64,000 bases of DNA from Spongiibacter sp. IMCC21906 (lineage in GTDB: Bacteria; Pseudomonadota; Gammaproteobacteria; Pseudomonadales; Spongiibacteraceae), in NCBI RefSeq assembly GCF_001010805.1, contig NZ_CP011477.1:2495001-2559000 (forward strand). Direction: 5' to 3'. Position 1 is the first letter of the stretch; the number at the start of each line of letters is the position of its first letter. The notes under the pieces were generated by a model, which had not been told where the DNA came from, ran no database searches, and saw nothing but the letters and a program-made list of their open reading frames with translations. The position numbers and the translations under genes are program-made. Of the stretch, positions 3,243 to 14,096 are shown piece by piece.

Positions 3243-5036
3243 ATGATGAGGCTGCGGAAAAGTATTATCGCCGTGTTTATCGCCGCTGCCGCGCTACTGC
3301 TCTGTGCCCAAAGCCGAGCAGAACTGCTGGTAATGGCGGATATTTCGGGCGCCGACGACTCTCTAGATAGTGCCATACAAGACAATATCCGCGCCCACCT
3401 CAGCGCAGACAATCTGCCCTGTTCCACCAGTGAAAGAAGTTTACTCCGCGCTCTGCGTAAAAGCGGCGACGAGATATCCCGCGCCATGCGGGCACTGGGC
3501 TATTATCACAGCAGTTGGAAAATCTCCCATAAAAAAGACAGCCGCTTGGAAGAAGGCATTAGTAAAAAACTGATTAATAAACGCCAAGACTGCTGGAAGG
3601 TTCGAGTGGTCGTGACACCCGGTGAGCCGGTAATAATGACCCAAGTCGACGTCAAGGTATTAGGCGAAGCCAGCACCGACCCGGTTTTTCAAGACTACTT
3701 AAACGAGTTGCCCGCCAAAGTAGGCCAACAACTCAACCACGCCGCCTACGAAGACATTAAAAAGGGTTTAAACCAAAGAGCCCGCAACTTTGGTTACTTT
3801 GAAGCCAAGCTCGATACCCACACGCTAGAAATAGACACTGACACAAATCAGGCAAACATCTCCATCAGCTTTGATAGCGGACCTCGCTACCACTTTGGCG
3901 CGGTGACGTTTTCTGCGTCGCCGCTGGGTGAGCCCTTATTAGAGCGATTCTTGCCCTTTCAAATCGGCGAGGCCTTTAATAACAACAAGCTCATCGAATT
4001 TCAAAGCAAGCTGGTCAGCAGCGGCTATTTCGACAGCGTCAGTGTCGACCAACAAACCTCAGAAAGCGACGCCAAAACCGTGCCTATAGCGGTCACCACC
4101 ACCCCCAAAACACGCTACGAAACCACGGCGGGTATTGGCGCCTCCACCGATACCGGGCCGCGCTTAAGCTATGGGCTGCGCAATCGACGTGTTAACCCCG
4201 ACGGCGATACCTACCAAGTTAGCAGCCAGCTATCGCCGGTGCAGTCCAACTTGGGTTTTCAATACTCCCAGCCTCGGGCCAACCCGTTGACCGAAAAGCT
4301 GCAATGGTCAACGGGGATAGAGACCGAAGACACCGACACGGTAGATAGCACCAGCTTTCAGGCGAAGGTGGCCTTAATCGATGAAACCAGCAGCAACTGG
4401 CTACAAACCACCAGCCTTAAGTTTTTGCGGGAAGACTATGAGGTTTCTGACGTCGACCGCAGCTCGATACTACTGATCCCAGAAATTGCCTGGACCAAAA
4501 GCCAAAGCAACAATCCACGCTATCCTACCAAGGGCTGGCGAATCACCGCAGCCGTACGTGGCGCAGTAAAAGAAGTGGTATCCGACATCAGCATGGCGCA
4601 GGTAGAAACCGACGCGAAACTCATACTGCCACTTTTTGGTGGCCGCGTTATCAGCCGCGCGGGTTTTGGCGCCACCGCGCTGGACGAATTTGACGAACTG
4701 CCCGCCTCGCTGCGATTTTTTGCCGGTGGCGACAATAGTGTGCGGGGCTTTGGCTACAAAGATTTGGGCCCTGAAGATGACGAAGGCGAAGTTATCGGTG
4801 GCCAACACCGCATTACTGCCAGTATAGAATATGATCACAAAGTATGGCGGGATTTTGCCCTGGCCACCTTCTACGATGTGGGTAACGCCTTCGACTCAAA
4901 AGACTTTACCCTGTATCACAGTGCTGGTATCGGTATTCGCTGGTTTAGCCCCATCGGTCCAATTCGTATTGATTTGGCCTTCCCGTTAAAGGACGGCAGC
5001 TACCGCATTCATTTATCGATGGGGCCAGATTTATGA
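3243..5036 (+). CDS. tamA: TamA, Omp85-family outer membrane assembly protein
   Basis: Outer-membrane half of the TAM complex, which helps insert some outer-membrane proteins and supports envelope lipid homeostasis. 597 residues: signal peptide 1-27 (cleavage after SRA), three POTRA-like repeats to about residue 275, then a 16-strand type barrel. The Omp85 loop-6 signature VRGF is present (GGDNSVRGFGYKDLG) and the chain ends in a barrel-type C-terminus. The usual length is about 575-600. The start is the first ATG after GAGGGA at 3225-3230; this spacing is long (12 bases), and ATG 3246 is equally possible. It overlaps tamB by four bases (ATGA), so the two are translationally coupled. Confidence 0.95.
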   Translation: MMRLRKSIIAVFIAAAALLLCAQSRAELLVMADISGADDSLDSAIQDNIRAHLSADNLPCSTSERSLLRALRKSGDEISRAMRALGYYHSSWKISHKKDSRLEEGISKKLINKRQDCWKVRVVVTPGEPVIMTQVDVKVLGEASTDPVFQDYLNELPAKVGQQLNHAAYEDIKKGLNQRARNFGYFEAKLDTHTLEIDTDTNQANISISFDSGPRYHFGAVTFSASPLGEPLLERFLPFQIGEAFNNNKLIEFQSKLVSSGYFDSVSVDQQTSESDAKTVPIAVTTTPKTRYETTAGIGASTDTGPRLSYGLRNRRVNPDGDTYQVSSQLSPVQSNLGFQYSQPRANPLTEKLQWSTGIETEDTDTVDSTSFQAKVALIDETSSNWLQTTSLKFLREDYEVSDVDRSSILLIPEIAWTKSQSNNPRYPTKGWRITAAVRGAVKEVVSDISMAQVETDAKLILPLFGGRVISRAGFGATALDEFDELPASLRFFAGGDNSVRGFGYKDLGPEDDEGEVIGGQHRITASIEYDHKVWRDFALATFYDVGNAFDSKDFTLYHSAGIGIRWFSPIGPIRIDLAFPLKDGSYRIHLSMGPDL

Positions 5037-8000
5037 GCCCAACAAAATTGACCAATCCAGCAAAGCCCGACTCAAACAAAGCCCCTCGCTGGCAACGCAA
5101 CTTAGCGGTCAGCATCCTTGGCATGCTGCTGATTGCTGTTATCACTATTGGCTCATTAGTCGCCCTACTCAGCACGGAAAAAGGCAGCCAATGGTTGCTC
5201 GCCCTCGCAAATGACAAGGTCGAGCTATTTGATTACCAGCACGCCAGTGGCAATCTCGCCGATGGTCTGCAAATCAGTCACTTGCAAATTCATGCGGGTG
5301 GTACCCGCATCGATATCGCTAGCCTGGAAAGTCGCTGGCAATTCTGGGAGCTGCTCAGAGGCCGGTTTAGTATCAGCCAGCTGCATGTTCAGAAACTCGA
5401 CATCCACCGCTCTAACAAACAAGATCAGACGCCCACTGCACCCGGCGCATGGCCGACATTGTCGCTACCGCTGCCGATCGCCATTAAAGATTTAATGGTG
5501 CATGAACTCAGCATTTATCAAGGCGACAGCATTCAGGTCATTGAGACGATTAAACTCCAGGCGAGCATCAGCCCTTTAGGTTTAACCGTTAACAATGTAA
5601 CGGTGCAAAAAGGCGAACAGCAACTTGCACTGCAAGGCGAAATCGCAGCGGCGTTTCCCTACCCACTTAAGCTCAATATCCATTGGCAGAGCACACTAAA
5701 CGACAAACAGCAACTCCGGGGTGAAGGCAGCGTCTCTGGCAATTTACATACGCTAAATATCCAGCATCAACTGCTGTCACCCTATGTGCTAAATACTAAA
5801 GGCGAGTTAGCACTGGCGGTGAATGACGCCGTGATGCAAATCGATCCCGATACGATCAGCGTGGATATCCATAACCAATGGCCGCAAACCCCCATTGCGG
5901 TTGGCGCCGATGACAGCCTACAAAGCCAAGGCCAGTTAGATATAAAAGGTCGATTTGACCGCTACGTACTGAGCCTTAACAGCCGTTTAGCAGCACAACA
6001 GAAAAACGGCACTGCTCCGCAGAATAATCGCGCGGCACCGGCAAAGGCGACACCCACAAATCCGCCAGAGTCGCTTGTGCAAACGGCACTTGCCAAACCC
6101 AGTCACATTTCTATCAATGTTCAAGGCAACAAACTGGCGCTGCAGCTCAGTGACAGCAGTGTGGAAAGTCATCTCGGTAAACTTGTTATTAACGGCAAAG
6201 CCGACGCCAATGCCCTGCTCAACGGCGGCGGTCCGGTAAGCTGGGATATCAGTACCGTCTTACAAAATATCACCCTGGAAAAATTACTGCCCCAGTGGCC
6301 CGCCGTCATTAACGCCAACGCGGTTAGCCAAGGTCAGTGGCAGGATGATAAATACACTATCGCCGTCAATCTCAAATCACTAAAAGGGGAGTTACGGGGT
6401 AACCGTATTGATGGTAAAGGCAATATCGCCATAACTGAAACCTCCCAATCCATCTCAAATTTCACAGTTAATATTGGCGATAATGCCCTGCGGGTAACAG
6501 GCACCCGGCAAGACAACATTGATCTTAACTGGAATATAAACGCCCCCAAACTCACTCAACTGTATAAGGGCCTGAGTGGTCAACTCATGTCACGTGGCGA
6601 GCTATCGGGTAGCTTGTCCGCACCCAATGTTAATGCCACCGCCGAAGGCAAATACCTCAAGTTTGACGGCAACAAACTCGATACCGCCACGTTAAATGCC
6701 AACATCCAAAAAAATGTATTGGACTTACAACTGCAGCTCAGCGGCATTGAAGCCGCGGCATTAAAAGATGCCGAACTCGCGGTGAATATTCAGGGGAATA
6801 TGAACCGTCATAGCGTTTCTAGCCAGCTGCACAATGGCATGGAACACCTTACCCTAGACTTGAGTGGTGGTCTTAAGGACCAACGTTGGCAAGGCGAAAT
6901 TTCTCGCTTGAATATCAACTCGTCCACCGCCGGAGACTGGCAACTTAAAAAGCCAGCGCCGCTTTATGCCGCCGCCGACAACGTGCAGCTTGAAGACTTT
7001 TGTCTGCAACAAAAACAAGCCTCCATCTGCAATCAATTGCATTGGCAAAACCAAACCCTGACAACCAAGGCGAGCTTGAACAACGTCGCCATTGAAAACT
7101 TTATTCAAGGCATGCCCGAAGGTAGCGGCGTAAGCGGTCGCCTGAATGCCGAGCTTAACGCTGAGGGCCCCATCACTGCATTAAAAGCAGAGGTGAAGGC
7201 TTCCATTGATTCACTGCTGATGCGTTACAAGCCCGCCGAAGATGAAGCGCTTGTCGAGTTCGACGGCAAATTTAGCCTTGCTGCGCAATCTGACGGCAAA
7301 AAAGCCACCGCCCAAAGCCGCTTTAGTTTAGCCGAGTTTGGCGAGCTAAATGCCCAACTTTCAATGGACGCCTTAAACGCCGATGCCAATCTGCAGGGTG
7401 AAATCCAAGCTGGCTTTAGCAATCTGCAATGGCTGGGTTCACTGCTGCCCCAACTGGAAAAACTCGACGGTAAACTCGATAGCAATATCAATATTGCCGG
7501 TCAGCTTTCCAAACCCGTTATCGCTGGCGAAGTGTCGCTGCAAGCACTGCGCATGGATATTCCAGACCTGGGCTTAAATTTACGCGACGGTGAACTATCG
7601 GCCAAGATCGACAACGATTCTCAGTGGCAAACCACCGCCAAGGTCATGTCTAAAGACAGCGCACTGTCTCTTTCAGGTCAAGGTTCTCTAGACGGTAAAA
7701 ACGGCCCCGTTGGCACATTAACGGTGACCGGCGATCGTTTCTTGCTAGCCGACACTGACGACTTGCGAGCAATGGTCAGCCCCAAGATCGATATTCAACT
7801 CAAAGACGAAACCATCGATATTGGCGGCAAACTGGCCATTAACGAAGGCCACTACCATCTAAATGCCCTGCCCTCCCAAGCGGTTGATGTATCCGGCGAC
7901 GAACGCATTGTCTCCAAAGAGCCAGAAAATCAGCTGGGTGGCCGACCATTGAATATCGAAATAAATCTGGCGCTGGATAAAAGCTTTACCTTTAAGGGCT

Positions 8001-11931: not shown

Positions 11932-12726
11932 TTACACAATATCGTCAACCACTCCGCCATCCACCCGCAGCGCGGCGCCACTGGTGGCTGAAGCCTGCTG
12001 AGAGCACACGTAAACGACCATATTGGCCACCTCTGCCGTGGTTGCCGGGCGCTGTATCACCGAGCTGGCGCGATGGGCCATCACAAATTCTGCGCCCAAC
12101 TCTTCTACACTTTTACCCGTTTTTTCTGCTTCATCGGCAAACATCGCCTCAAAACCATCGGACAAGGTCGGCCCCGGCAAGACACTGTTTACCGTTACGC
12201 CGCTGCCCGCCACACGTTTTGCCAACCCCCTCGACAACGACAGCTGCGCTGTTTTACTGACCCCGTAATGAATCATATCGGCGGGAATATTGCGCGCTGA
12301 CTCTGAAGAGATAAACACCACTCTGCCCCAGCCGTTTTCCTGCATCGTCGGCAAATACGCCCTGGATAATCGCACTCCCGACATCACATTGGTTTGCCAG
12401 TAACGCGCCCATGTGTCGTCGTCGGTTTCAAAGAAATCTTCCGGACCGTAGATGCCCGCATTGTTGACGAGAATATCCACTTTTGGCACTGCTTTGATCA
12501 ATGCCGCACAGCCCTCTGCACTGCCAAGGTCGGCAGCGACGGTGCTCAAGGTCGCCGAGGAAAATTCGGCAAGCAAGCTGTCTTTTGCCTTGCTGAGACT
12601 ACTTTCATTGCGGCCATTTAAAATGACCTCTGCGCCGGTCGCCAGCAAACCCTTGGCAATGGCAAAACCAATGCCGCCAGAAGAAGCCGTCACCAGTGCG
12701 CGTTTACCTTGAAGATCTATATGCAT
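11932..12726 (-). CDS. SDR family oxidoreductase (canonical active site)
   Basis: NAD(P)-dependent short-chain dehydrogenase/reductase of 264 residues, complete: TASSGGIG cofactor motif (13-20), NNAG (88-91), Ser140/141, and Tyr154-x-x-x-Lys158 (YGVSK). The C-terminal SGAALRVDGGVVDDIV is typical. Start placed at ATG 12726, preceded by AAAGGA at good distance; the open frame runs on to 12795 without a ribosome site. Divergent from a LysR regulator, the classic arrangement for a regulator and its target. The shared promoter is interrupted by the 318-bp element at 12851-13168. Substrate unknown. Confidence 0.9.
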   Translation of the reverse strand: MHIDLQGKRALVTASSGGIGFAIAKGLLATGAEVILNGRNESSLSKAKDSLLAEFSSATLSTVAADLGSAEGCAALIKAVPKVDILVNNAGIYGPEDFFETDDDTWARYWQTNVMSGVRLSRAYLPTMQENGWGRVVFISSESARNIPADMIHYGVSKTAQLSLSRGLAKRVAGSGVTVNSVLPGPTLSDGFEAMFADEAEKTGKSVEELGAEFVMAHRASSVIQRPATTAEVANMVVYVCSQQASATSGAALRVDGGVVDDIV

Positions 12727-12850
12727 TTCATATCCTTTAGTGTTGAGGAATCTTGAGCAATACCTTTCTGCCAATTGCTGAGCAGAAGCGAACAAGTGTC
12801 CACAAAAATATCGTATCGGCCCCGGTTTATTGATTAAATAGACAAAGTAT

Positions 12851-12874
12851 TAAGGCACCTCTGATTAATTCGGT
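12851..12874 (+). repeat. Left terminal inverted repeat
   Basis: 24 bases, exact reverse complement of 13145-13168. Confidence 0.9.
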
Positions 12875-13144
12875 AATGTTTCAACGGAGTCTCTGGCGCG
12901 CACTGGCAAGACGCGATGCGAACGACTGCATGGATGCAGGAGGTAGCGCAACGCAGGAGCAGTTGCCGCGATTAAGGCTGGTTGTCCTTAATGAGCATGG
13001 CAACGCAGTCCAGTGTGCGCCAGAGGCCCGCCCCTCGGGGCTTAGCCAAAAGCGACTCAACTGCGTTGCCGCCACTTGAAAGGCAACCAGCATTCCTTCA
13101 TGTCGGCGCCTTGTTGAGCCGCTTTTGGCTAAGCTTGAGATATC

Positions 13145-13168
13145 ACCGAATTAATCAGAGGTGCCTTA
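13145..13168 (-). repeat. Right terminal inverted repeat
   Basis: 24 bases, exact reverse complement of 12851-12874. It contains a GTG at 13161 that is in frame with the LysR gene but is not its start. Confidence 0.9.
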
Positions 13169-13193
13169 TGTAATTTTGTCTAAAGAGTTAAAA

Positions 13194-14096
13194 ATGAAGG
13201 GATTAGATGACCTGATCGGCCTACGGGTATTTGAGCGTGTAGTCACCTTAGGTAGCCTGACCGCGGCCGCTCAGGATTTAGGCCTGTCTATTGCCGCCGC
13301 CAGTAAACGGCTGGCCAAGCTGGAAGCCCGCCTGGGTTTGCAACTCATTCATCGCAGCACCCGCCGATTGTCGGTCAGCGACGAGGGTAAAACCCTTTAC
13401 AGCTACGCTCAACGCGCTCTTTTAGAACTGGATCAAGCCGAAGAAATTCTGCTGCAAACCAACCAGCGGGTGGCGGGTAACTTACGTATCACCGCCCCCC
13501 ACAGCTTTGGTCGGCAGCGTTTGGTGCCCCTCCTCGCGCCCTTTAAACGCGACTTTCCCGATTTAAACTTGCAGTTGATATTTACCGACGGAGTAGAAGA
13601 CTTAATTGCTGGCAGTATTGATGTGGCTATCCGCTATGGCCAGCTTCCCGATTCGGGCATGGTGGCCCGGGAACTACTCCCCAACCGCCGGGTGCTATGT
13701 GCATCGCCAGACTATTTAGGCCGTTGGGGCACCCCCAGTTCACTAGACGACTTACAACAACACCAGTGTATTGTGCTGGGCAGACAGGCTGATACTGAGT
13801 GGCGGTTTACCAATAGCAGCGTTCAAGTCCACGGCAGCATTTGCTGTAACGATGGCGAAGCGGGTCACAGCATGGCCCTGCAAGGTATGGGAATTGTACT
13901 GAAGTCGTATTGGGATGTTGTCGAAGACCTGCAGTCAGGGCAATTAATTCAAGTCCTCCCCGACCATGCCCAAGCCTCGGCGCCGATCAGCGCAGTGTAT
14001 TTACAGAAACGCGACCTGGCACCCAGGGTGCGCGTGTTTATCGACTTTTTGGTGGCCGAAATGGACAAACTGCGCAGTCAACTGCCTTTTGTTTAA
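13194..14096 (+). CDS. LysR-family transcriptional regulator
   Basis: 300-residue LysR-type regulator: N-terminal winged helix-turn-helix (LGSLTAAAQDLGLSIAAASKRLAKLE, given here in part) and a C-terminal periplasmic-binding-like effector domain, of the AaeR/DmlR-like kind. The start is ATG 13194 (MKGLDDLIGL). A longer frame from GTG 13161 begins inside the right inverted repeat of the inserted element and is rejected. It probably controlled the divergent SDR gene; the element now separates the two genes by about 470 bp. Effector unknown. Confidence 0.92.
   Translation: MKGLDDLIGLRVFERVVTLGSLTAAAQDLGLSIAAASKRLAKLEARLGLQLIHRSTRRLSVSDEGKTLYSYAQRALLELDQAEEILLQTNQRVAGNLRITAPHSFGRQRLVPLLAPFKRDFPDLNLQLIFTDGVEDLIAGSIDVAIRYGQLPDSGMVARELLPNRRVLCASPDYLGRWGTPSSLDDLQQHQCIVLGRQADTEWRFTNSSVQVHGSICCNDGEAGHSMALQGMGIVLKSYWDVVEDLQSGQLIQVLPDHAQASAPISAVYLQKRDLAPRVRVFIDFLVAEMDKLRSQLPFV

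Follow-up and report, generated by a model that had tools for sequence, protein, structure and literature searches.

The space between two divergent genes of Spongiibacter sp. IMCC21906, encoding a short-chain dehydrogenase (minus strand) and a LysR-type regulator (plus strand), is occupied by a non-coding element with long inverted ends. The question raised by this locus is whether the element is an ordinary MITE, derived from an insertion sequence (IS), or whether its inside has been kept for a function of its own. The window examined is a stretch of 64,000 nucleotides (G000:C1:2495001-2559000), in which a sequence-only reading had placed a 318-bp element at 12851-13168 with exact 24-bp inverted ends. 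The element is real, but comparison of copies sets its ends at 12854 and 13165, giving a length of 312 bp. The outer three base pairs on each side (TAA/TTA) are target site rather than element, and therefore the perfect repeat, which is indeed exact over 24 bp, is composed of 21 bp of element and 3 bp of target. The parts of the locus are as follows.

11932-12726, minus strand: neighbouring gene, short-chain dehydrogenase
12850-12853, no strand: left copy of the target site, TTAA (YTAR), from the sequence and copy comparison
12854-13165, plus strand: whole element, a 265-bp form with a 47-bp insert; the sole match in the window to model R2 at E<=0.01
12854-12884, plus strand: left outer stem, beginning with the 21-bp perfect terminal inverted repeat
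12885-13030, plus strand: arm A, a hairpin with its inward-reading sense on the plus strand
12907-12913: internal-loop motif of arm A, CAAGACG (family consensus CAAGGCG)
12923-12969, plus strand: 47-bp insert in arm A, lacking from 265-bp copies
13031-13039, no strand: apex mini-hairpin, inside CCCGCCCCTCGGGGC
13040-13134, minus strand: arm B, inverted homologue of arm A, with the same motifs on the minus strand
13135-13165, minus strand: right outer stem and terminal inverted repeat
13166-13169, no strand: right copy of the target site, TTAT, sharing three of four letters with the left copy
13194-14096, plus strand: neighbouring gene, LysR-type regulator, likely start ATG at 13194

The 34-nt arm pair at the element ends is 91% complementary, with the first 24 positions exact when the target letters are included, and each side of the outer stem measures 31 nt. 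Five further inner pairs with 71-95% complementarity bear out the earlier description of at least four inner dyads. Likewise, the three reported copies of GCAACGCAG are located at 12948-12956, 13000-13008 and, inverted, 13061-13069, the first of them within the 47-bp insert. The lack of coding capacity also holds, as no ORF of at least 80 amino acids lies inside the element and the only one that touches it results from extending the LysR gene upstream to GTG 13161. The proposed folding of the 318 bases is consistent with a predicted RNA energy of -178.1 kcal/mol, compared to -109.7 (sd 4.3) for 100 dinucleotide shuffles (z = -16). No promoter or terminator patterns were found at 12650-13300 of the window copy.

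The 47-bp insert is also a dispersed repeat elsewhere, with matches of approximately 45-53 bp at 88-96% identity in G027, G028, G036, G047 and G053, which belong to other families. It matches Pseudoalteromonas plasmids as well, and 43 bp of it occur within pglX of a Moellerella plasmid and of a Salmonella plasmid.

The element is a mobile, non-autonomous transposon. It is short, lacks a transposase gene, carries terminal inverted repeats, is flanked by target-site duplications and resides at several unrelated sites. A BLAST search of its own genome yielded six 318-base matches at 97-100% identity (the window copy included), plus shorter or more divergent ones. In total, the genome contains 13 two-ended copies of 158 to 313 bp with different flanks, among them the 265-bp form without the insert. 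In 56 of 122 distinct copies, gathered from many genomes, the two 4-bp flanks are identical, compared to a mean of 1.8 at random positions, and 95 copies have a YTAR flank on at least one side. Nine of the 56 identical pairs are non-palindromic, and the identity therefore reflects duplication rather than an extension of the inverted repeat. This count leaves out L061, L084, L107, L134, L135 and L138, along with finds outside the range of 150-400 bp, second finds per locus and copies too near contig ends. A search for empty sites, with five of nine joined flanks compared against 18 genomes, returned no hit across a junction. According to a crude gene caller, the neighbouring genes of copies are arranged in tandem in 54 cases, divergently in 27 and convergently in 23, with five not called; this is no clear preference and does not discriminate between the readings considered below.

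Two kinds of related sequence were also observed. Derivatives of 38-56 bp that retain little besides the two terminal repeats are present at L047:1475-1530, L054:4370-4422, L139:374-423, L151:470-522 and L161:445-482. Microbulbifer thermotolerans carries 212-214-bp elements with related ends and a different inside dominated by a single long hairpin (L067:5079-5291, L069:5631-5844, and L075:302-513, 4313-4525 and 5782-5994).

The IS that might supply the transposase was sought by a DDE_Tnp_1 search of 19 genomes, followed by reading of the IS ends. A genome of the same genus, G010, carries an IS5-family IS of approximately 1.18 kb whose transposase corresponds to NCBIfam NF033581 and whose ends are GGCATCTCTGATTAATTC and GGAACATCTGATTAATTG. 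The former is identical to the element end GGCACCTCTGATTAATTC at 17 of 18 positions and the other IS end at 15 of 18, and the duplicated targets of this IS are CTAA or CTAG. A partial IS copy in G016 has one end that matches the end of the element. The G010 transposase has no match in the Spongiibacter sp. IMCC21906 genome at E<=1e-90, and 8 of 293 genomes match. This genome does carry IS5-type copies, six of them free of a stop and one broken, and the ends of the broken copy and of the three stop-free copies that were read are unlike those of the element. The broken copy, at L124:995-1785, has a transposase gene interrupted by a stop and shortened by an internal deletion. Another copy of the element in the same genus, L179, has ends GGAGCCTCTGCACAACCC, which resemble the end GGAACCTCTGCACAACC of the IS5-type IS resident in the Spongiibacter sp. 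IMCC21906 genome.

A precedent is provided by MITEPsy1 of Pseudomonas syringae, a 100-bp element that transposes in vivo with a 4-bp duplication of CTAG or YTAA, and for which the authors propose mobilization by the transposase of the IS5-family ISPsy2 (PMC3189936). Because of this precedent and the IS5-type ends within the genus, an IS5-type transposase acting in trans likely moves the element in this lineage. The suggestion of a MITE-like passenger made by the sequence-only reading is thus supported, since both a second copy (13 two-ended copies in all) and matching IS ends (those of G010) do exist.

The inside of the element has features that extend beyond these ends. Copies from Zhongshania, Spongiibacter, Bacterioplanes, Oceanobacter and metagenome assemblies, which were found by end sequence or BLAST, share a minimum-energy plan that consists of an outer stem of 26-31 pairs, arm A, an apex hairpin and arm B. 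In 262-266-bp copies, arm A spans 99-101 nt, the apex 7-9 and arm B 95-97, and the corresponding values in L077 are 87, 16 and 91. The arm-stem sequences vary widely between copies despite this common plan of approximately 262 bp. Among 36 paired-end finds, the plan is present in 26 (including L077, with its slightly different arm lengths) and absent from ten (L012, L039, L061, L067, L069, three of L075, L107 and L138).

A check for covariation among copies had been suggested by the sequence-only reading, and comparative analysis provides it. In a 14-copy alignment (A2), at least one compensatory double change occurs in 62 of 96 consensus pairs. Moreover, 92.5% of its cells pair, compared to 76.8% in shuffles, and the covariation score is 0.444 versus 0.163 for shuffled data, with none of 500 shuffles reaching it; the score falls to 0.060-0.112 when partners are slid by one to three columns. 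The alignment includes 14 of the 18 copies in the 255-285 bp length class, which were identified through BLAST or their end sequences rather than with a structure model. It leaves out L011 and L031 because of indels, and it is not wholly blind to structure because L039 and L138 were dropped for lacking the plan. In a class-wide alignment (A4; 51 of 59 copies, after removal of eight near-duplicates), 92 of 97 pairs have a double change, and this covariation is partly selected because the copies were picked by model R2.

The two arms themselves are inverted homologues. When arm A is compared with the reverse complement of arm B, CAAGGCGC and GCAACG fall nearly in register. In addition, a model built from both arms (R1) finds both of them, in opposite orientation, including in copies outside its training; the copies used to build it match by construction. 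Since R1 aligned the stems badly, it served only to locate the arms.

The distribution of this scaffold was assessed with R2, a covariance model of the whole element that recovers the window copy at exactly 12854-13165. By model score alone, matches are present in 123 of 390 genomes (60 of 142 genera) in a draw from the order and in 110 of 369 genomes (88 of 272 genera) in a draw from the class, where only this genome among those matching belongs to the same order. In a draw from the phylum, 62 of 299 genomes match by the same score, 38 of them outside the class. The three draws overlap, and the copy numbers are lower bounds, with five candidates scored per genome in the order and class draws and six in the phylum draw. 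Most of the R2 matches listed are full length at approximately 252-268 bp, with exceptions ranging from 86 to 363. Unpaired motifs recur as well. A CAAGGCG-like motif is found in 82 of 99 copies, compared to 2 in shuffled copies, and an apex CCC..GGG in 97 of 99, compared to 3, where nearly all of these copies were chosen by R2, which knows the motifs.

Full copies were also detected by R2 on plasmids of Azotobacter chroococcum and Halomonas sp. PA16-9, and the PLSDB table, which is incomplete, lists no gene under them. In blastn searches of plasmids, L345, a copy from the same order, has partial matches in six records, including the Azotobacter chroococcum and Halomonas ones. The window copy matches through its insert region only, and L186 and L189 have no match. 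Assignment to a known structured RNA family was rejected, as no Rfam 15 family matches the window element at gathering score (only P18 is listed, with an E value of 5.4). Copies in 20 further loci also have no match at that score, with M23, mir-2941 and HCV_SL588 appearing below threshold.

The scaffold persists while its ends change. Among the 122 copies, 68 have GGNNNCTCTGA-like ends, 17 have other ends that begin with GG, 28 start with T and 9 are of other kinds; the T-type ends include TACTCCTTCAAG.., TGTCCCGTCTG.. and TGTACTGCGTCA... IS5-type ends are therefore not found in every lineage of the scaffold family, and the target is mostly CTAG/YTAR across the changing end types. Partners for the T-type ends were sought in several ways. 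Of 20 genomes chosen for their copies with other ends (TACTC.., TGTCC.., TATCG..), seven have no DDE_Tnp_1 match, and none of 30 DDE_Tnp_1 loci from the 20 genomes carries a pair of such ends, the closest being a lone match with 4 mismatches in L374. One of these genomes, G544, contains an IS5-type IS with a CTAG duplication, but its scaffold copy has other ends. Inspection by eye of the ORFs in 28 loci revealed no recognizable transposase except one of the Y1 type, the sole ORF among them that was compared with protein families. A search for a TACTC-ended IS in 20 further stretches gave no close IS-sized end pair, with weak partners of 3-4 mismatches in L283, L284 and L291, and exact patterns of two end types gave no hits in IMG/VR. 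From the varying ends and the lack of a T-type partner IS among these loci it follows that either the scaffold swaps ends for different transposases or something else reads the scaffold.

A TACTCTTTCAAGGTAATAAA-type end is abundant in G587 and G602, with 63 and 78 pattern matches, respectively, at up to 2 mismatches. Many of these ends are located at contig ends, and, in the stretches read, many are single ends that lack a close partner.

The form in which the arms are maintained can be assessed from their mismatches. A hairpin formed by one folded strand tolerates a G.T (G.U) mismatch better than the complementary A.C, whereas the two are equivalent in duplex DNA. In Watson-Crick-only folds of 99 copies (of 109; 250-268 bp in length and nearly all picked by R2), the isolated mismatches in the arms, read in the inward sense, comprise 196 G.T and 33 A.C. 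The bias is present in both arms, with 115 G.T and 18 A.C for arm A on the plus strand and 81 and 15 for arm B on the minus strand. In the outer stem of the same 99 copies, these folds give 44 G.T and 56 A.C. Of the 196 G.T mismatches, 59 fall in a single position bin, the largest, and the arms still give 137:31 when it is removed; a bin at the base of arm B runs in the opposite direction, at 1:4. With two folds per copy for all 109 copies, the counts are 424:72 in the arms (bootstrap ratio over copies 4.15-8.76) and 97:116 in the outer stem (0.62-1.13), where the bootstrap understates the error because the copies are related by descent. Two alignment-based counts are weaker, and the arms in both run in the same direction: 177:64 in the arms and 42:40 in the outer stem for A4, and 110:49 and 40:24 for the second.

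Because the G.T bias changes strand at the apex, a strand-wide mutation bias caused by transcription or replication does not explain it. We argue that the bias is also independent of how a copy is oriented. These counts suggest that both arms are maintained as folded strands in the inward reading direction, and the ends as duplex repeats. A folded single strand of DNA would leave the same signature as RNA.

These observations are best accounted for by an IS5-type passenger transposon that carries a conserved, orientation-independent RNA (or single-strand DNA) module, an explanation that we consider probable. An IS5-type transposase supplied in trans would move the element, and its cargo would be the conserved scaffold of two homologous inverted hairpin arms, a small apex hairpin and paired ends. 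Transcription from neighbouring genes, entering from either side, would then meet its first arm in the sense orientation, and the inward-read strand of that arm would be what selection keeps foldable. The likeliest use would be co-transcriptional, whereby a folded arm in read-through RNA makes an insertion tolerable, or stabilizes or insulates the transcript. Such an effect in either orientation would let the element persist. We infer that RNA rather than single-strand DNA is the active form, that the role is an insulating one and that mobilization is by IS5 in trans. The proposal of the sequence-only reading that there is more structure than a MITE needs, and that it may act as RNA, is favoured by the compensatory changes and by the strand polarity of G.T and A.C mismatches. 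On a wider scale, there is a nearly even chance that the copies form a mobile structured family that extends throughout the Gammaproteobacteria and beyond. Its heritable unit would be the scaffold of approximately 262 bp and not the ends, and it would change terminal repeats between lineages and thereby pass from one transposase to another, or rely on a structure-reading enzyme, inserting mostly into CTAG/YTAR.

Other explanations must account for the same data. Template switching or conversion could homogenize the arms of a hairpin, and the element might thus be a functionless IS5 derivative, an ordinary MITE whose inside became self-complementary through such events between the hairpin sides. 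The resemblance of its ends to IS ends and the existence of short derivatives that keep little beyond the ends are expected of such a MITE. However, the 262-266-bp copies maintain a near-constant length and plan across genera with widely differing arm sequences, their unpaired motifs recur, and neither conversion nor a strand-wide mutation bias would give a G.T bias that flips strand at the apex, which makes this explanation improbable. A structure-guided DNA element is also unlikely, if somewhat less so. Here, an enzyme would recognize a folded single strand or cruciform arms and insert the element at CTAG/YTAR, and the ends would need only to be complementary. This would suit ends that differ by lineage while the scaffold and a YTAR-type target recur, the failure to find a partner IS for T-type ends in the loci examined, and a polarity that a folded single DNA strand would explain no less well than RNA. 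However, within the genus the ends match those of an IS5-type IS, and the outer stem lacks clear polarity (44:56; 40:24), as for a double-stranded site.

REPINs are non-autonomous inverted hairpin pairs, and the two arms raise the possibility of a REPIN-like element moved by a REP-associated tyrosine transposase (RAYT). This candidate was prompted by one 334-bp copy with a CTAG duplication, located approximately 20 bp from a Y1-type transposase gene. The adjoining ORF, at L259:145-1466, is of the REP-associated tyrosine transposase type, scores just under the NCBIfam cut-off and has a DnaA-like C-terminal match. RAYT mobilization was rejected on co-occurrence and seems highly improbable, in that G004, G009, G021 and G026 each have four or five scored copies and no Y1_Tnp match, and the copies in this genome lie at least approximately 27 kb from any of its three Y1 genes. 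The element also differs from REPINs in its 4-bp target duplications and long terminal repeats.

Several known repeats resemble the element in part. MITEPsy1 has IS5-type ends (GG..TCTGA..), the 4-bp CTAG/YTAA duplication and no coding sequence in common with it, but is 100 bp in length and occurs as well-conserved copies within a single genomospecies, besides some homologues that are more distant; the term 'secondary structure' is absent from the main text of its description (PMC3189936). Correia/NEMIS, ERIC, RUP and the Coxiella QMITEs are likewise small, non-autonomous and repeated, and their transcripts form long stems; a role in mRNA processing has been proposed for NEMIS while QMITEs yield sRNAs. 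However, each has been described in one genus or group, and the relevant sections of these reports describe no class-wide scaffold under changing ends (PMC2229807, PMC5896051, PMC10969869). The CIR repeats of Caulobacter and Brucella have two long hairpin arms with a linker and properties conserved between genera, but they lack terminal inverted repeats and carry a GANTC motif (PMC2229807). IStrons also combine a DNA transposon with an RNA part that makes insertion harmless; that part is a group I intron, whereas the element here has no Rfam match at gathering score and no 80-amino-acid ORF (PMC4227781). We recognized no description of such a scaffold family in the open-access literature, a scope outside which most subscription journals and all preprints fall.

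By its testable features, the element is a MITE, and it is distinct in having a scaffold that outlives both ends and sequence across a class. The strand-polarity count used here offers a simple and reusable way to distinguish palindromic repeats that work as one folded strand from those that work as duplex DNA. Should the arms neutralize an insertion at the RNA level, a laboratory strain would allow a direct test. The usual view of a bacterial MITE is that of a deletion product of a single IS. A fold kept across more than 100 genera under changing sequence and ends would imply that non-coding passengers can have a selected function of their own.
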